Shown one piece after another: positions 852 to 7,925 of a stretch of 7,925 nt of DNA; the stretch's first letter is position 1; each line of letters opens with the position of its first letter. The DNA lies in assembly GCA_003661385.1 (NCBI GenBank), contig QMWA01000077.1:1-7925 (forward strand). The letters run 5' to 3'. Both the position numbers and the translations under genes were made by a program. Source of the stretch: Thermoproteota archaeon. Lineage in GTDB: Archaea; Korarchaeota; Korarchaeia; B14-G2. Under the pieces are notes generated by a model. That model did no database searches, was not told where the DNA came from, and saw only the letters and a program-made list of their open reading frames with translations.

Positions 852-1280
852 CTACCCACCTCCTATGTTGTACTTGGAGTACTCCCCGTGGAACTCTGTT
901 GGGATCGTCCTGAGGATCTCAAGCCACCTCTCTGTTGCCTTGGCTAGCTTGAGGAGCTTCATGAGGTTACCCCTCACCTTAAGCTTCCTGGTGAGGAAAG
1001 CCTTCGTAACCCCCATTTCTCCCCTGAGGATAGAGACCCAAACACCGTATTTCCCCGATATCACGAAGTCTGTCTTCTTCTCCCCAAGCCATATGTCAGT
1101 TATCCTCCCATTCTCGACGCTGTACCCCAGGACTATGGTCTTGTCGACCCCCTTCTCCGGCTCAGGCTCCATTATGAACGTATATGAGGCGTTCTCCTCT
1201 TTGGCTAGCTCGAGGTACTCCTCGTCCTCATTCGTCCGCTTCATGACCTCCTTAAGGTACTCCTCAGATGTGAACTCCAA
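852..1280 (-). CDS. SCP2-like (sterol carrier protein 2 domain) protein
   Basis: The gene encodes a soluble 142-residue protein with an SCP2-type fold. The recognisable part is about residues 70-122: TDFVISGKYGVWVSILRG, then the GxxxxxxAFLxRKLKVxGNLMKLLKL segment typical of SCP2 domains, then an amphipathic helix ending at about 125. SCP2 domains form a hydrophobic tunnel for lipids or fatty acyl compounds; archaeal members are mostly uncharacterised. No signal peptide or membrane helix is seen, so it should be cytosolic. GGTGA at 1286-1290 lies five bases before TTG 1280-1278, which I take as the start; the in-frame GTG three codons earlier is within the ribosome-binding site. The start codon is one base after the TAG of the dehydrogenase gene, suggesting coupled translation. 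The C-terminal Gly-Gly-Gly is encoded by the next gene's ribosome-binding site. Confidence 0.85.
   Translation of the reverse strand: MEFTSEEYLKEVMKRTNEDEEYLELAKEENASYTFIMEPEPEKGVDKTIVLGYSVENGRITDIWLGEKKTDFVISGKYGVWVSILRGEMGVTKAFLTRKLKVRGNLMKLLKLAKATERWLEILRTIPTEFHGEYSKYNIGGG
856..863 (-). promoter_or_regulatory. Ribosome-binding site GGAGGTGG for the CTG-started membrane protein
   Basis: This is the longest Shine-Dalgarno match in the operon and lies within the last codons of the SCP2-like gene (GGA GGT GGG TAG). Counted from GGTGG, the fifth base is followed by CTG. It overlaps the only in-frame GTG, which argues against that GTG as the start. Confidence 0.65.
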
Positions 1281-1281
1281 G

Positions 1282-2301
1282 CTACTCACCTGCTAGCTCG
1301 ACTACAATCTTGCACTCATCTGTGGGCTTAACCAGCCTCTTAAACCCTCTCTCGACCACGTCCTCTAGCGGTATAACCGAGGTTATGATCTTATCTGCGT
1401 CGATCTCCCCTTCTGCCAGGAGCTTTATGGCTAGAGGGTACTCGTTGTACCCCAGGTATGAGCCCTTGACTGTCAGCTGGTTTAAGACCAGCGTAAAGAA
1501 GTCTGCTTCAAATGGCTCCTCGCATATACCTATCACCACTATCTCTCCTCCCTTCTTGACGAGTGTGAAGTTGCTGCTCAGCGAAGCTGGGACGCCTGCT
1601 GCATCGAATACGATGTCCACGCCTTCTCCGCCTGTCTCCCTCTCTACTATGGCGCCTAGGTTCTCTGATGTCGGGTCTACTGTGACGTGTGCACCCAGCT
1701 CCTCGGCTATCCTGCGTCTCCCTGGGCTTGGCTCGCTCACCATTATCTTCGAGGCCCCAGCTAGCTCAGCTACCTCAACCGTGCACGCGCCTATTGGGCC
1801 TGCTCCCTGAACCAGCACAGTGTCTCCAGCCTTCAAGCTGGAGATCATGTAGGCGTGGAGCACGTCAGCTAGGGTGTCTACCAGAGTGGCGTGGAGCATT
1901 GAGAGGCTGTCTGGGAGCTTGTAGACTACCTTAGCTGGCATCACAATGTACTCTGCCATAGCTCCATTGAATGTCACGCCAGTCATCTGCAGGTCTTCGC
2001 ACTGGCTTGGCTTCCCTGTCAGGCAGTACTTGCAGCAGCCACAGGGGACTGCCCCGTTTCCTGTGACCCTGTCACCTGGCTTGAAGCCCTCTACCCCCTC
2101 ACCGACCTCCTCTATGTAGCCTGAGAACTCGTGGCCTATTACTAGGCCCTCAACGTAGTTTCCTGTCCTATAAGCTGCTACATCTGAGCCGCAGATGCCG
2201 CAGTAGGCTACCTTGATGAGGACCTCACCTGCCTTGGGCTCAGGCTTCGGTACATCAGCTACCCTGATGTCCTCCAAGCCCATGAAGACAGCTGCCTTCA
2301 A
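1282..2301 (-). CDS. Zinc-dependent medium-chain alcohol dehydrogenase (2,3-butanediol/threonine/sorbitol dehydrogenase-like)
   Basis: A full-length 339-residue MDR enzyme predicted to oxidise a secondary alcohol or polyol with a nicotinamide cofactor. Catalytic zinc ligands are Cys37 (CGICGSD), His57 and Glu58 (GHE). The structural zinc lobe is complete, with Cys87, Cys90, Cys93 and Cys101. The Rossmann motif GAGPIG is at 166-171, and an acidic residue follows strand 2 (VSEP, Glu190), favouring NAD over NADP. The glutamate of the usual EPLA motif near position 142, a zinc ligand in threonine dehydrogenases, is replaced by Asp (DTLAD). TTG at 2301 is preceded by GGTGG at 2306-2310; its start shares TTGA with the TGA stop of E1 beta. 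The N-terminus resembles bacterial (R,R)-butanediol dehydrogenases, which fits acetoin chemistry next to an E1 pair, but the substrate is not proven. Confidence 0.88.
   Translation of the reverse strand: MKAAVFMGLEDIRVADVPKPEPKAGEVLIKVAYCGICGSDVAAYRTGNYVEGLVIGHEFSGYIEEVGEGVEGFKPGDRVTGNGAVPCGCCKYCLTGKPSQCEDLQMTGVTFNGAMAEYIVMPAKVVYKLPDSLSMLHATLVDTLADVLHAYMISSLKAGDTVLVQGAGPIGACTVEVAELAGASKIMVSEPSPGRRRIAEELGAHVTVDPTSENLGAIVERETGGEGVDIVFDAAGVPASLSSNFTLVKKGGEIVVIGICEEPFEADFFTLVLNQLTVKGSYLGYNEYPLAIKLLAEGEIDADKIITSVIPLEDVVERGFKRLVKPTDECKIVVELAGE
1286..1290 (-). promoter_or_regulatory. Ribosome-binding site GGTGA deciding the TTG start of the SCP2-like gene
   Basis: The GGTGA is formed by the final Gly-Glu codons of the alcohol dehydrogenase gene (GGT GAG TAG). 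TTG follows five bases later. It overlaps the alternative in-frame GTG. Confidence 0.7.
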
Positions 2302-3305
2302 GCTTCCACCAGCTTCAAAGCCTCCTTTACAATCTTATCCTCAGATGGGAGCACAGCCTTCTCGAGAGGCTCTGAGAAGGGCACTGGGACGCCTGGGTTC
2401 CCTACCCTAGCTGGAGGAGCCTTGAGCGCCTTGAAGGCTTCAGCGTCCTCAGCTATGGTGGCTATGACCTCACCTGTCAGCCCATATGGGAGGTAGTCTT
2501 CGTCTACTACAAGGAGCCTGCCGGTCTTCTCCACGGACTTCCTGAGCGCATGTTTGTCGAGTGGCACTAGAGTCCTCAGGTCTATGACCTCAGCGCTTAC
2601 ACCCTGCTCTCTTAGCCTGTCAGCTGCCTTCTCAGCCAGGTACGCTGTGTAAGCTGCTCCGACTATCGTGATGTCCTCTCCTTCAGCTGCTATCCTGGCT
2701 TCCCCGAGTGGGAGCTCATATGGCTCCTCAGGCACCTCTCCGAAGGAGCCTGGTGGAAGGTAGAATAGCCCGTAGAGGAGCTTGTGCTCCAGGAACACAA
2801 CTGGGTCGTCGCATCTTATCGACGAGATGAGCAGGCCCTTGGCGTCATAGGGGTTTGAGGGAGCTACCACCTTTAGCCCTGGGATGTGGGCGAATATCGA
2901 GTACAGGACTTGGGAGTGCTGTGCTGCATCCCCGTAGCCTCCTCCTATAGGAGCTCTTATCACAACTGGGAGCTTAAACTGGCCTCCAGACATGTACCTG
3001 AGCTTGGCTAGGTGGTTGTATATCTGGTCCCAGGCCACCCCGAAGAAGTCCACGAACTGGAGCTCTACTATCGGCCTCAGCCCGACTAGAGCTGCTCCAA
3101 TGGCCATCCCCATGAAGCCTGCCTCGCTTATCGGTGTGTCTATCACCCTGGAGCTGCCGAACTGCTCTAGCAGCCCTTGGGTGCACCAGAAGGCTCCACC
3201 CATCTTCCCTATGTCCTCTCCTAGGACTATTATCCTGCTGTCCCTCTCCATCTCCTGCCTTATAGCCTCGTTTATGGCCTCCCACATCGCTATCTCGCGT
3301 GGCAT
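2298..3305 (-). CDS. pdhB: 2-Oxoacid dehydrogenase E1 component, beta subunit
   Basis: The 335-residue product is the transketolase-like beta subunit of a heterotetrameric thiamine-diphosphate E1 enzyme (pyruvate, branched-chain 2-oxoacid or acetoin type). Family marks in order: GED at 29-31, DTPISE at 56-61 with Glu61 as the thiamine-activating glutamate, ELQFVDFF at 81-88, AQHSQ at 128-132, the interdomain EVIDLRTLVPLD at 239-250, and a C-terminal PFSEPLEKAVLPS. Length is normal for the family. With the alpha subunit it would decarboxylate a 2-oxoacid and acylate the lipoyl group of E2. ATG at 3305 has GGTGA five bases upstream, so it is preferred over the GTG three codons earlier. It starts one base after the alpha stop and overlaps the dehydrogenase gene by four bases. 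The name pdhB gives the family only; acoB or bkdA2-type function is equally possible. Confidence 0.9.
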   Translation of the reverse strand: MPREIAMWEAINEAIRQEMERDSRIIVLGEDIGKMGGAFWCTQGLLEQFGSSRVIDTPISEAGFMGMAIGAALVGLRPIVELQFVDFFGVAWDQIYNHLAKLRYMSGGQFKLPVVIRAPIGGGYGDAAQHSQVLYSIFAHIPGLKVVAPSNPYDAKGLLISSIRCDDPVVFLEHKLLYGLFYLPPGSFGEVPEEPYELPLGEARIAAEGEDITIVGAAYTAYLAEKAADRLREQGVSAEVIDLRTLVPLDKHALRKSVEKTGRLLVVDEDYLPYGLTGEVIATIAEDAEAFKALKAPPARVGNPGVPVPFSEPLEKAVLPSEDKIVKEALKLVEA

Positions 3306-3306
3306 G

Positions 3307-4335
3307 CTACTCACCTGAGAAGATGTCTCTAAAGGCCTCTTCTGGAGCTGGCAGCGGCGAGCTGAGGGCTCTCTGGAAGGCCTCCTCTACCAGCTTCCTT
3401 GCCTCAGCTTTGATCTGCTCGAAGTCCTCCTTGGAAGCCAGCTTCAGCTCCACAGCCTGCTCCTCCAGCCTCCTGACTGGGTCGAGCTTCTCCCACTTCT
3501 CCTTCTCGCCTTCAGGCCTGTACTCCTCTGTGTCGACTATCTCGAGGTGAGGTGAGAGCCTGTATGTCTTGCAGTCCAACAGGGATGGCCCCTCTCCCCT
3601 TCTGGCCCTCTCTACCGCCCACTTTGCTGCCGTGTACACTGCTATCACGTCGTTCCCGTCTACCTCCAGGGCTGGCATGCTGTAGCCTAGTGCCCTGATC
3701 GCGTTGCTTTCAACTGCAGTGGACTCGCTTCTCCTCGTGCTGAAGGCGTACTGGTTGTCCTCGAGGACAAACACCACTGGAAGCCTGTAGATTGACGCTA
3801 GGTTGAGTGACTCGTGGAATGTGCCCTGGTTTGCTGCCCCATCTCCGAAGAAAGCTACTGCAACGCTGTCCTCTCCTAGGGTCTTGAAGGCTAGTGCAGC
3901 GCCCGCAGCGATGGGGATGCCGCCTCCAACTATGCCTGTGGCCAGGAACCTCTTGCTGCTGCTCGCGAGGTGCATGTGGCCTCCCTTACCCCTGCAGACT
4001 CCTGAAGCTCTCCCGTACAGCTCTGCTATGATGCCGTCTAGGGGAAGCCCCTTGCATACAGCGTGAGCTATGCACCTGTGGGTAGCTGAGACGAAGTCCC
4101 TGTCGGAGAGAAGCTCACACACGCCAGCTGGGATCGCCTCCTGGCCTCGGCCGAGGTGCAGCTCCCCTCTCATCTCGAAGCTCTCATACCTCCTCTTGAG
4201 CTCGTCTTCTAGCGTCCTGGCGAGCACCATCTTCCTGTAGAAGCTTAAGGCCAGCTCTCTTGTCACCTCAGCCTCCAGCTTCTCCTCCCTCTCGGCTAAA
4301 GAGTAGCTCTTGAAGCTCAGCAGGACTCTACTCAA
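3307..4335 (-). CDS. pdhA: 2-Oxoacid dehydrogenase E1 component, alpha subunit
   Basis: The 342-residue product is the thiamine-diphosphate-binding alpha subunit that pairs with the beta subunit encoded next. Marks in order: RTLEDEL at 40-46 and HLGRGQEA at 60-67; the CRGKGGHMH loop at 114-122; and the thiamine diphosphate/Mg signature from GDGAAN (164-169) to EDN (192-194), where most relatives have ENN. The later SPHLE loop (261-265) keeps its histidine but has Pro where YGH/RGH-type relatives have Gly. The EYRP segment follows. TTG at 4335-4333 is chosen because GGTGA (4340-4344) lies four bases upstream. A longer reading from ATG 4404 would run into the transporter gene and add residues unlike the family. 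No E2 or E3 gene is present here, so the rest of the complex must lie elsewhere. The substrate is not determined by these motifs. Confidence 0.9.
   Translation of the reverse strand: MSRVLLSFKSYSLAEREEKLEAEVTRELALSFYRKMVLARTLEDELKRRYESFEMRGELHLGRGQEAIPAGVCELLSDRDFVSATHRCIAHAVCKGLPLDGIIAELYGRASGVCRGKGGHMHLASSSKRFLATGIVGGGIPIAAGAALAFKTLGEDSVAVAFFGDGAANQGTFHESLNLASIYRLPVVFVLEDNQYAFSTRRSESTAVESNAIRALGYSMPALEVDGNDVIAVYTAAKWAVERARRGEGPSLLDCKTYRLSPHLEIVDTEEYRPEGEKEKWEKLDPVRRLEEQAVELKLASKEDFEQIKAEARKLVEEAFQRALSSPLPAPEEAFRDIFSGE
3311..3315 (-). promoter_or_regulatory. Ribosome-binding site GGTGA deciding the ATG start of E1 beta
   Basis: GGTGA is built from the last two codons of E1 alpha (GGT GAG TAG), followed by C and ATG. 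The spacer is five bases, matching the ADH/SCP2 junction. Confidence 0.7.
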
Positions 4336-4339
4336 GTGC

Positions 4340-4344
4340 TCACC
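4340..4344 (-). promoter_or_regulatory. Ribosome-binding site GGTGA deciding the TTG start of E1 alpha
   Basis: GGTGA lies in the 46-nt gap after the transporter gene, four bases before TTG. The preceding bases TTCTCAGGTGAG are identical to those at the E1 alpha/E1 beta junction. It rules out the longer ATG reading from 4404. Confidence 0.7.
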
Positions 4345-4381
4345 TGAGAAATAGGGGGAAGCTCGCTTTAACTGTTGTGCT

Positions 4382-5122
4382 CTACCTGCGTAGCTTGAGC
4401 ACACCTGATGCCCTGACAGCGTACATCACGGGGACGCCTATTATGGCTAGAAGCAGGAGCATGGTTGCCCTCTCTACTGCTGACAGAAGCAGCACGCCCT
4501 TGAAGATGCTAGCCAGCTTCTCAGGGGACGTAGGGGCCCCGAGGAGAGGGCCTCCGAGGGATATGAAGAGGAGGTTGCCGACCATGTGGTCTGAGACTAT
4601 GCCAGCGTAGCCTGCTAGCACAGCTGCAGCAGGCATGGACTTCCTCCCATCATAGAGCTTAGGAAGCCACCTGCCTGTGGTGAGGAGCACAGCTAAGCCA
4701 GCCCAGTGGAGCACAGGATACCAGTAGGCTATCCTCCCTACTGCCGTGAGATACCAGCCAGCTATCAGAGCTGCTAGGACAGCTGAAGCCAGGATCCAGC
4801 CTCTCACCTTGCTGACCCTGTGGGTGACAGCTAGCCCAGAGACCAAGGCCGCTGTAGCTGGGCAAAGCGTCGTGGCAAGCCCCCATGGGCCTGATGCTCC
4901 AGGCGGTAGGACCCAGCCCACGAACGCGCCAAGCCATGCTGCAGCAAACCCTGTGAATGGGCCTATCAGCATGCCGTAGACTGGCCCCAGGAAAGCTGCT
5001 AGCTCTATCTTCCCCTTACCACCTCCCCCAACCACAGGTATCCCTGGGAGCATAGATGCCATCGCATACACTGCTGCTAGGACTGCTATGAGAGCTAGGT
5101 GCCTAGATGAGATGCTAGGCAC
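4382..5122 (-). CDS. ECF-type vitamin transporter S component (substrate-binding membrane protein)
   Basis: The 246-residue product is an integral membrane protein with about six or seven hydrophobic segments, at roughly residues 8-25, 40-72, 80-97, 108-126, 137-149, 164-190 and 208-236. The start (LALIAVLAAVYAMAS) followed by a short polar Gly/Lys loop (GGGGKGKIELAAFLGP), and then the small-residue-rich GPxYGxLxGPxxGxxA segment, fits the S component of energy-coupling-factor transporters. S components bind a vitamin or cofactor and work with an EcfT/EcfAA' module, which is not in the window. The ligand cannot be read from the sequence. Its position ahead of thiamine-diphosphate-dependent E1 genes makes thiamine or lipoate reasonable guesses. 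GTG 5122 has GGTGA four bases upstream (5127-5131). It is the first gene of the minus operon and diverges from the winged-helix kinase gene. Confidence 0.72.
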   Translation of the reverse strand: MPSISSRHLALIAVLAAVYAMASMLPGIPVVGGGGKGKIELAAFLGPVYGMLIGPFTGFAAAWLGAFVGWVLPPGASGPWGLATTLCPATAALVSGLAVTHRVSKVRGWILASAVLAALIAGWYLTAVGRIAYWYPVLHWAGLAVLLTTGRWLPKLYDGRKSMPAAAVLAGYAGIVSDHMVGNLLFISLGGPLLGAPTSPEKLASIFKGVLLLSAVERATMLLLLAIIGVPVMYAVRASGVLKLRR

Positions 5123-5131: not shown

Positions 5132-5154
5132 AGGCTAGGGGGGCCAGTGCAGCG

Positions 5155-5161
5155 TTTTAAA
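5155..5161 (-). promoter_or_regulatory. TATA box of the transporter/E1 operon promoter
   Basis: The minus strand reads TTTAAAA (AAGTTTAAAACGC). A start about 26 bp downstream falls near 5132, just before GGTGA and the GTG at 5122. The operator-like array begins only about 4 bp upstream of this box, where a regulator would touch TFB or block it. No other promoter as good is seen upstream of the six minus genes. Confidence 0.65.
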
Positions 5162-5164
5162 CTT

Positions 5165-5205
5165 GCCTGGAAGCCCTGGAACAGGGGCTTCCATAGGTTC
5201 CAGCC
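5165..5205. promoter_or_regulatory. Operator-like dyad with four TGGAA half-sites
   Basis: TGGAA occurs at 5168-5172 and 5177-5181, and its complement TTCCA at 5189-5193 and 5198-5202. Both pairs are spaced 9 bp apart and all four are symmetric about base 5185, with C/G flanks continuing the symmetry at 5167/5203 and 5165/5205. Nested in it are perfect inverted repeats GGAAGCCC/GGGCTTCC (5169-5176, 5185-5192) and CTGGAAC/GTTCCAG (5176-5182, 5197-5203). The site lies between two divergent promoters and touches the transporter TATA box. A binding site for a dimeric or tetrameric winged-helix regulator is the natural reading; the divergent HTH-kinase is the obvious candidate. Confidence 0.6.
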
Positions 5206-5225
5206 GCCTGAGCCAGCACCCACAG

Positions 5226-5232
5226 TTTAAAG
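5226..5232 (+). promoter_or_regulatory. TATA-like box of the winged-helix kinase gene
   Basis: TTTAAAG on the plus strand, 47 bp before the TTG start. A start about 26 bp downstream falls near 5255, giving a leader of roughly 18 nt. It faces away from the transporter promoter and leaves the operator-like dyad between the two boxes. Confidence 0.5.
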
Positions 5233-5247
5233 AGCTGCATGTACGGG

Positions 5248-5268
5248 GCCACCAGCTGAGCAGGTGGC
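5248..5268. repeat. Inverted repeat GCCACC/GGTGGC overlapping the kinase RBS
   Basis: Perfect six-base arms GCCACC (5248-5253) and GGTGGC (5263-5268) are separated by nine bases. The right arm contains the ribosome-binding site GGTGG. With a transcript start near 5255 the left arm would mostly be outside the mRNA, so a DNA site over the initiation region is more likely than an RNA hairpin, unless transcription starts earlier. Confidence 0.4.
5263..5267 (+). promoter_or_regulatory. Ribosome-binding site GGTGG deciding the TTG start of the HTH-kinase gene
   Basis: GGTGG is followed by CTTGC and then TTG at 5273. The five-base spacer matches other junctions in the window. The in-frame GTG at 5264 lies within the site and is therefore disfavoured. 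Confidence 0.6.
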
Positions 5269-5272
5269 TTGC

Positions 5273-6643
5273 TTGAGCAGCATATGGCCCTACATCCTCC
5301 CTCTTCCAGTTAAGCTCAATGAGCAGGCTAGGGTACTGCTTTCAGCATTCGGCTCAGAGGACGCCATAGAGATCTTGAGGTTCATGCCGGTAAGGGGCTT
5401 CGTCAGCCAGCAGGAGATAGTGGACCTGTTCAAGGACAAGAGGTCTGATAAGACTGTTGTGAAGAGGCTCAAGCAGCTTGTGAGGGCAGGGCTCCTCGAG
5501 GAGTCTACTGGGAGAGCTGAGTCTAGGGGGAAGACGGTTTGGGTCAGGAGGTATAGGCTGACCAAGCTTGGCGCCTGGATATCGATGCTCCTCTCCTCCC
5601 CCAAGCTTGTTGAAGACGAGTATGTGAGAGAGCTCTCAGTGGAGCTCTTCAAGCTGTACGCTGAGAGCGTAGCCAGGTTCTGCGTCGACTACAAGGTCAG
5701 CCCCAGGCTCCTGCTCAAGTCCTTCCTCAAGTCCTACCTGAGCAGCTTAGCTGCCTCAACCAGGAGGAGCGTGGATGCAGCTGTGTTCGGCTCCATGGCG
5801 CTAGACTACGAGATCCCTGTTGGGAGCCTTCCACTGGCTGAGGAGACTTACTTCACATCTGAGGCTGTTGTGCTCCCAGGTGGGATGGCAGCTAACGTGG
5901 CTGCAGCTCTAGCTCAGATGGGCGTTGCAGTCGCCCTAATGGCTAGGGTTGGCGCTGACGAGGCTGCTCTCATAGCCATGGCTAGGCTAGCTGAGCTCGG
6001 TGTAGACTTGAGCAGCATAGTGGTATCAGAGGAAGCTGAGACAGCCAGGACCTTCGTGCTTATCGCTGAGGATGGGAGGAAGCAGGTTGTGCTGCCAGCT
6101 AGGAGGGAAACCTCACTCTCACTGACCTCGCCTAGTGAGGTCAGCTGGAGCAGGGTTGAGGAGAGCAAGCTCGTGTATGTTGGTGAGGTCTACACTGAGA
6201 TAGCTAGGGTGGTGGCCGGCTACGCCAGGGACAGGGAGAAGACCGTGGTCTATAGGCCTGGGCTGCCAATCCTCAAGAGCAGGGGGAGGCAGGCTCTTGA
6301 GGTGGCTAAGCTGGCAGACGTCTTCATCCTGAACATGGAGTCAGCTAGGGCCATCGGAGGCTGGAGGGAGAAGCTTATGGAGCTGGTGAGGGATGGCTGT
6401 GAAGCTGTCATCGTGACGCTCGGGAGCAGAGGGTGCATGGTATTGAGGAGGGAGGGTGTTGTGGAGCTGCTAGCTGAGAGAGCCTCAGCCAGAGACACAA
6501 CTGGCGCTGGAGATGTCTTCTCAGCTGGATTGGCTAGGGAGCTGCTGAGGGGCGCTGACATCGAGCATGCCGCTGAGTTCGGCTTGAGGCTCTCAGCTAG
6601 ATCCGTGTCAGAGGTTGGAGGCAGATACAAGCTAGCTGACTAG
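5273..6643 (+). CDS. Winged-helix DNA-binding domain fused to a PfkB-family kinase domain
   Basis: This 456-residue fusion probably acts as a ligand-sensing regulator, a kinase, or both. Residues about 15-108 form a winged helix: a first helix (DAIEILRFMP), SQQEIVDLF, the recognition helix SDKTVVKRLKQLVRAGLLEE and a basic wing (SRGKTVWVRRYRLT). A helical linker spans about 110-166. The PfkB/ribokinase domain starts at about 168 with AAVFGSMALDYE, then the sugar-binding LPGGMAANVAAALAQMG (201-217) and the ATP/anion-hole motif DTTGAGD (408-414) with the expected catalytic base Asp414. The family's NxxE motif is altered to NMES (354-357), which could weaken Mg/ATP use. The phosphate acceptor is unknown; PfkB members use sugars, nucleosides or pyridoxal. 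It is divergent from the transporter/E1 operon across an operator-like dyad, so local control is the likely job. TTG 5273 is chosen from the GGTGG spacing. Confidence 0.82.
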   Translation: MSSIWPYILPLPVKLNEQARVLLSAFGSEDAIEILRFMPVRGFVSQQEIVDLFKDKRSDKTVVKRLKQLVRAGLLEESTGRAESRGKTVWVRRYRLTKLGAWISMLLSSPKLVEDEYVRELSVELFKLYAESVARFCVDYKVSPRLLLKSFLKSYLSSLAASTRRSVDAAVFGSMALDYEIPVGSLPLAEETYFTSEAVVLPGGMAANVAAALAQMGVAVALMARVGADEAALIAMARLAELGVDLSSIVVSEEAETARTFVLIAEDGRKQVVLPARRETSLSLTSPSEVSWSRVEESKLVYVGEVYTEIARVVAGYARDREKTVVYRPGLPILKSRGRQALEVAKLADVFILNMESARAIGGWREKLMELVRDGCEAVIVTLGSRGCMVLRREGVVELLAERASARDTTGAGDVFSAGLARELLRGADIEHAAEFGLRLSARSVSEVGGRYKLAD

Positions 6644-6710: not shown

Positions 6711-7925
6711 ATGAGCGAGCCTAGGATCGGAGTCTACATATGCCACTGTGGCAAGAACATAGCTGGAGTCATAGATGTCTCTAAGCTAGTCGAGTACGCG
6801 TCGAAGCTCCCTGGGGTAGTGGTCGCCAGGGAGTACCCGTACATGTGCTCTTCTCCAGGGCAGGAGCTGGTGGCCAAGGACATAAGGGAGCTTGGCGTGA
6901 ACAGGGTTGTGATAGCAGCCTGCAGCCCAAAGATGCATGAGCAGACTTTCCAGAAGGTGCTTGAGAAAGCTGGTGTAAACCCCCACCTCCTGGAGTTCGC
7001 TAACATAAGAGAGCATGTCACATGGGTCCACAGCTCAGAGCCGGAGAAGGCCCTGGAGAAAGCCAAGGCCCTGGTAGCTGGCGCTGTGGCGAAGGCAGCC
7101 CTCCTGGAGCCCATTGAGCCTGAGAGGGTCAGCGTAAAGGGAGCTGCACTCGTGGTCGGGGGAGGGATAGCTGGAATAAGGGCTGCACTCGACATAGCTA
7201 ACGCCGGGTTCAAGGTCTACCTCGTTGAGAAGCAGCCTAGCATAGGAGGGCACATGGCTAAGCTCGACAAGACCTTCCCAACGCTAGACTGCTCACAGTG
7301 CATCCTAACCCCCCTGATGGTTGAGGCTGCAAGCCACCCTAACATAGAGCTCATGACATACTCTGAAGTCGAGAGCGTAGAGGGCTACGTGGGTAACTTC
7401 AAGGTGAAGGTGAGGAGGAAGGCAGCATACGTAGACTGGGACAAGTGCGTCGGCTGCGGGCTATGTGCTGAGAAGTGCCCTGTCAAGAAGGTCCCAGACG
7501 AGTTCAACGAGGGCCTCGGGTACAGGACAGCAATATACTTCCAGTTCCCTCAGGCTGTCCCGAGGAGGCCTGTGATAGACAGCGAGCACTGCCTCTACTT
7601 CACGAAGGGGGTCTGCAGGGTGTGTGAGAAGGTGTGCCCAGCTGGCGCCATAGACTTCAGCCAAGAGGACAGAATAGAGGAGATAGAGGTTGGAGCGATA
7701 GTCGTGGCCACAGGGTTCAAGCTGCTAGACCCAAGGGAGGTCCCAGAGTACGGCTACGGGAGGTTCAGAAACGTCATAACAGGCCTAGAGCTGGAGAGGC
7801 TGTCCTCAGGTGGAGGCCCGACAGCAGGGAAGATCCTCAGGCCATCAGATGGGGAGCCGCCCAAGCGAGTGGCTATACTCCTGTGCGTCGGCTCCAGAGA
7901 CGAGAAGCACCTCCCATACTGCTGC
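6711..7925 (+). CDS. hdrA: CoB--CoM heterodisulfide reductase-like subunit A (HdrA), 3' end outside window
   Basis: The first 405 codons are present without a stop. HdrA is the flavoprotein of soluble Hdr complexes, where FAD splits electron pairs and iron-sulfur clusters carry them; it acts in the cytosol with HdrB and HdrC. Visible parts are the N-terminal domain with Cys11/Cys13 (CHCG), Cys46 and Cys71 (ACSPKMHE); the FAD Rossmann motif VVGGGIAG (148-155) with VEK at 172-174; IGGHMAKLDKTFPTLDCSQC (178-197); a ferredoxin motif with Cys246, 249, 252 and 256; and a second with Cys294, 302, 305 and 309, using the wider CLYFTKGVC spacing seen in HdrA. A second nucleotide-binding part follows (VVATGF). 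ATG 6711 fits the family N-terminus, but the ribosome-binding site is poor (AGGG only). Methanogenesis does not follow, because many non-methanogenic archaea carry HdrA. Partner genes lie outside the window. Confidence 0.92.
   Translation, partial: MSEPRIGVYICHCGKNIAGVIDVSKLVEYASKLPGVVVAREYPYMCSSPGQELVAKDIRELGVNRVVIAACSPKMHEQTFQKVLEKAGVNPHLLEFANIREHVTWVHSSEPEKALEKAKALVAGAVAKAALLEPIEPERVSVKGAALVVGGGIAGIRAALDIANAGFKVYLVEKQPSIGGHMAKLDKTFPTLDCSQCILTPLMVEAASHPNIELMTYSEVESVEGYVGNFKVKVRRKAAYVDWDKCVGCGLCAEKCPVKKVPDEFNEGLGYRTAIYFQFPQAVPRRPVIDSEHCLYFTKGVCRVCEKVCPAGAIDFSQEDRIEEIEVGAIVVATGFKLLDPREVPEYGYGRFRNVITGLELERLSSGGGPTAGKILRPSDGEPPKRVAILLCVGSRDEKHLPYCC

Follow-up and report, generated by a model that had tools for sequence, protein, structure and literature searches.

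RbkR, an archaeal HTH domain fused to a CTP-dependent riboflavin kinase, is listed in an annotation table of PMC8305020 as a bifunctional gene regulator and enzyme. The protein of this study is encoded in a 7,925-nucleotide stretch of korarchaeal DNA (hereafter, the window). Like RbkR, it is an archaeal protein in which an HTH is joined to a small-molecule kinase, and its enzyme domain may double as a sensor. However, the kinase of RbkR is of another fold and family. The window protein lacks a riboflavin-kinase domain and has a PfkB/ribokinase-type domain instead, and its target would be an ECF transporter S component (ECF-S). A further contrast is that the kinase motif has been lost in part of the wHTH-PfkB family. 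In Bacteria, PRK09954/YeiI-type proteins carry an HTH ahead of a PfkB kinase. Their domain order is that of the window protein and their model weakly matches its PfkB part, but the score is 31 bits where membership requires 561, so the window protein is not a member. The PRK09954/YeiI type is not known to pair with ECF-S. No description of a wHTH(-PfkB)/ECF-S regulator family was found in the limited body of literature searched, and these regulators are apparently an undescribed family.

As listed in Table 1, the regulator gene is divergent to the ECF-S gene, and the gap between them is 141 bp. The window ECF-S protein scored 25.6 bits with the folate-type model NCBIfam TIGR04518, whose cut-off is 60. 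No E2 or E3 genes accompany the two E1 subunit genes (2298-4404) on this contig, and acetoin- or polyol-type oxidation by these subunits is possible. On the 3′ side of the regulator gene, an HdrA-like iron-sulfur protein (6711-7925), identified by eye only, is cut by the contig end. The regulator has 459 residues. A structure model of residues 1-169 (mean pLDDT 70) has a winged helix with a likely recognition helix at residues 62-74, while a Foldseek search with this model returned ArsR-, MarR-, and HxlR-type regulators, none with E < 0.001. Since the GAGD anion-hole/catalytic motif is intact, the PfkB domain would be an active kinase.

Table 1. Features of the window around the divergent regulator and ECF-S genes
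Feature	Position	Strand	Basis
SCP2-like protein	852..1289	-	
Zinc-dependent alcohol/polyol dehydrogenase	1282..2301	-	
E1 dehydrogenase beta subunit	2298..3314	-	
Thiamine-diphosphate E1 dehydrogenase alpha subunit, downstream in presumed operon	3307..4404	-	
ECF transporter S component, weakly matching S models of folate/riboflavin type	4382..5122	-	family models
Transporter-operon promoter element AGTTTAAAACGCTGCA (TATA-like box and GCTGCA), rival or accessory operator	5148..5163	-	
Four-half-site symmetric element, candidate operator	5168..5202	.	pattern and shuffles
Perfect 9-bp inverted repeat TGGAAGCCC-N8-GGGCTTCCA, alternative reading	5168..5193	.	same bases
Regulator promoter element AGTTTAAAGAGCTGCA, second copy	5224..5239	+	
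Regulator: winged helix (~residues 1-165) and PfkB/ribokinase-fold domain (172-455), DTTGAGD intact	5264..6643	+	

The gap contains a 35-bp element, TGGAA-GCCC-TGGAA-CAGGGGC-TTCCA-TAGG-TTCCA. The initial annotation had described it as four half-sites symmetric about base 5185, and both the pattern and the dyad are exact. The distances that it quoted to the two TATA boxes also hold: AGTTTAAA, the TATA-like box of the minus-strand operon (5156-5163), lies 4 nt off, and the regulator box begins at 5224, with TTTAAA at 5226. The symmetry about 5185 has an alternative: the same bases also form a perfect 9-bp inverted repeat. The layout TGGAA-N4-TGGAA-N7-TTCCA-N4-TTCCA has a single match in the 1.74-Mb host assembly with up to three mismatches allowed; thus, the frequent occurrence at unrelated loci that the initial annotation had named as evidence against its reading was not seen. 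The element supplies 4 of the 16 TGGAA/TTCCA copies of the window. An RNA hairpin or terminator was ruled out because the element is upstream of both promoters.

Is such an order unlikely by chance, as first claimed? I counted symmetric four-copy layouts of any 5-mer, in direct or inverted copies with spacers of 0-15 and 0-25, in shuffled sequences. They arose in 67 of 76,275 sequences (~9e-4) when the 141-bp intergenic region was dinucleotide-shuffled, and in 177 of 3,616 (5%) when the whole window was shuffled. The order is therefore strong for its location but only modest for a freely read 8-kb sequence. It is very improbable that the TGGAA repeats are a chance arrangement without function. 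The 5% figure and the fact that the element was picked by eye speak for chance, while the frequency in the gap speaks against it, as does the rarity of the 4-6/7-4 spacing used by the relatives described below, which any 5-mer produced in only 8 of 1,933,954 shuffles (4e-6).

Do relatives of the regulator keep the same gene pair? In the 29 genomes of the window's own phylum, no close copy was found, and a whole-protein search of the genome contigs did not find a relative. The ECF-S homologues of these own-phylum relatives lie with full ECF modules and without a recognisable wHTH neighbour. There is thus no footprint of the TGGAA element itself. A search with the winged helix only revealed standalone homologues in G038, G060, G102, G227, and G244 (27-29% identity over ~150 residues, E 1e-8 to 1e-18), and in all five the divergent neighbour is an ECF S component. 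Genomes G102, G227, and G244 belong to Altiarchaeota or Altiarchaeales. With a profile built from these homologues, E values went down to 1e-71, and the profile found a homologue in 35 genomes of the phylum of G038, mostly as fusions of 440-490 residues. Weak wHTH matches elsewhere (E ~1e-4 to 1e-7) were classed as generic winged helices. In total, 30 loci besides the window could be read with both genes; each has a wHTH homologue divergent to an ECF S-component gene, usually with a fused PfkB domain. The hosts are Altiarchaeota and, by inference, Asgard archaea (the phylum of G038). The Altiarchaeota members and those of G038 and G060 lack the PfkB domain and are standalone wHTH proteins. Pfam identifies PfkB in L082, and ribokinase-type NCBIfam models match L082, L091, and L086. 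The PfkB part of the window protein is homologous as well, being 34% identical to that of G403 and 33% to that of G404, with a further homologue in G566. The window protein and the other fusions are thus homologous over their full length.

The gaps of these relatives were then compared with that of the window. A symmetric multi-half-site element is present in 29 of the 30, and one gap was left without a resolved element. In 12 gaps, it is a double dyad, TGT-N8-ACA-N6/7-TGT-N8-ACA, with four half-sites in 34-35 bp; the dyads are 20-21 bp apart, and TGT is invariant in all 48 half-sites. The spacer is 6 nt in nine loci and 7 nt in three (L091, L105, and L106). A second symmetric layout occupies 17 gaps. 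In the large family f42, CAGTGTAG-N5-TAAACTACATAGG...TGTACACTG-like sites are common to fourteen loci, and three loci diverge. The gap of L110, which was left out of the alignment, has TGTAG-N9-CTACA by eye. A genome scan for the four-site pattern, proposed in the initial annotation, was run in the relatives with the N6 form: the double dyad was present at the wHTH/ECF-S gap in 10 of 10 genomes and was the only match in eight, while a reversed control gave 0. Genomes G403 and G404 have two matches each, and the extra ones are dissimilar and look unrelated. In G405, a contig end holds the N6 double dyad next to ECF-S. Counted from the ECF-S start, the operator begins at 6-24 bp in 9 of the 12 loci and at 51-52 bp in the three loci with a 7-nt spacer. 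At 6-24 bp, a bound protein would overlap the core promoter, making repression the first choice.

The window element shares with these operators the gap, the divergent gene pair, the four 5-bp half-sites, and an overall symmetric 5-4-5-6/7-5-4-5 spacing; its own spacing, 5-4-5-7-5-4-5, exactly matches that of the three relatives with a 7-nt spacer. On the other hand, TGT-N8-ACA dyads 20-21 bp apart are absent from the window. Position 3 of the half-site is G in the window and T in 48 of 48 half-sites of the relatives, the inner half-sites are reversed, and the distance to the ECF-S start (46 bp) is larger than in most relatives. The 14-mers of the window element are not dyads because of this reversal, and with the relatives' 14-mer matrix the best of them ranked 77th, the rest far below. 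Thus, phylogenetic footprinting, as the initial annotation had suggested, recovered the divergent pair and symmetric elements in the gaps but not the half-site letters.

The difference in the half-site may have a counterpart in the protein. Every relative aligned has SNK at the start of the recognition helix (motif SNK[TS]), whereas the window protein has SDKT, with D62 in place of N opening the predicted helix. D62 is a family variant and no ground for denying homology. It is a plausible reason for the change from T to G in the operator, and from the two sequences together it is reasonable to infer that helix and site changed jointly in the window lineage. Alternatively, the element could be a real operator of another regulator encoded elsewhere, the wHTH-PfkB protein binding other DNA or acting only as an enzyme. 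The unfamiliar half-site and orientation would agree with this alternative, which is nevertheless improbable, given that the genome has no second such site, as fits a local regulator, and that a symmetric element nearly always lies in the gap beside a member of the neighbouring regulator family.

A second candidate, missed by the initial annotation, lies in the promoters themselves. AGTTTAAA-N2-GCTGCA is common to both promoters in inverted orientation, and these two copies are the only matches in the genome at 0-1 mismatch. A general core promoter does not explain the sequence: there are no 1-mismatch matches, and those with two mismatches come to roughly the number expected by chance. The two copies may be the regulator's real sites, the TGGAA element being accessory or belonging to another factor; I consider this unlikely, but it deserves more weight than an operator for a regulator encoded elsewhere. 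The half-site would then be TGCAG, one base off the TGTAG of the relatives, and the protein would sit between the TATA box and the start site of each promoter. Besides their uniqueness, the copies rank 2nd and 6th of 15,812 positions with a matrix of the ECF-S-proximal half-operator of f42, and 13th and 17th of 7,912 with the 14-mer dyad matrix, where they are the best two in the gap. About 22 nt separate the left copy, CAGTGCAG-N5-TAAACT, from the ECF-S start, as is the case for the CAGTGTAG-N5-TAAACT-like site of f42, and given the TATA boxes the flank identity of 8/10 has a probability of 6e-4. However, an AT-rich TATA box alone raises these scores in a window of 57% GC. When the TATA boxes are not taken as given, an equally good inverted pair arose in 184 of 56,375 shuffles, and the copies lack the four-half-site layout of the relatives. 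It may also be that the TGGAA element and the promoter copies are parts of one composite operator region.

On balance, I regard it as fairly probable that the 141-bp gap is the regulator's autoregulated operator region for the ECF-S operon and that the TGGAA element is a lineage-diverged double dyad. The wHTH-PfkB regulator and the ECF-S operon under its control would have this region in common, and the TGGAA half-sites would stand at the same position as the double dyad of the relatives. Two regulator dimers, or one tetramer, might bind the element about two helical turns apart. The bound protein would lie against the transporter promoter on its TATA/BRE side, probably blocking TFB/TBP there, and would also tune the promoter of the regulator gene itself. 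A small-molecule ligand or substrate may be sensed by the PfkB domain, which would still be an active kinase in the window protein but a kinase-dead sensor in some of the relatives. Binding by the adjacent regulator, repression, and ligand sensing are what I infer from the locus and its relatives. The initial proposal that the adjacent regulator binds the element as a tetramer or two dimers thus gains from the relatives' double dyads and loses from the unlike half-sites and orientation.

What might be transported? The neighbours of the relatives include MptD, MptE-like, 5,10-methylene-H4MPT reductase-like, and methionine synthase genes, which point to pterin or C1 metabolism; such genes were not seen in the window operon. 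The ECF-S proteins of the relatives, like that of the window, weakly match folate- and riboflavin-type models. The regulated transporter is most likely of a cofactor type. More broadly, it can be proposed, tentatively, that an undescribed archaeal family of metabolite-sensing wHTH-PfkB proteins, with the kinase either active or degenerate, controls pterin/C1-cofactor-related ECF uptake through paired double dyads, and that the window has re-specified both the helix (N to D) and the operator (TGT to TGG, with the inner half-sites flipped). Such a family would provide a regulator with a clear operator in archaea, where specific regulons are hardly known, and would link ECF transport to pterin/C1 genes.

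Several fusions retain the GAGD motif, and f42 as well as L087, L088, and L090 have lost it. This pattern fits a sensor role of the PfkB domain. Judged by this motif, the GAGD-less fusions are candidate kinase-dead sensors, and the series from active to dead kinases among DNA-binding fusions is a direct case for the enzyme-to-sensor question. The f42 loci, within L095-L114, have a PfkB domain without GAGD and keep the ECF-S pairing; L105 and L106, though numbered within this range, are members of another family and have GAGD intact. Loci L087, L088, and L090 also have PfkB without GAGD and keep the pairing with pterin genes.

Several further arrangements were observed. In L084, L086, L089, and L092, wHTH-PfkB fusions lie between MptD (dihydroneopterin aldolase, PF04038) and MptE-like (PF01973) genes, and a palindrome, TGTTATTAACA or TGTTATTAAACA, is found upstream of MptD. 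L018 (129-8841), from the same class as the window, has a PfkB fragment at the contig end, an alcohol dehydrogenase 34% identical to that of the window, an FGGY kinase, and ECF A, T, and S genes on one strand. This suggests a carbohydrate-like substrate in this lineage. In L095 (1486-3135), the fusion ORF runs into a match to the C-terminal part of PriS, the DNA primase small subunit (residues 436-546); this PriS-like extension is either a gene fusion or a frame error.
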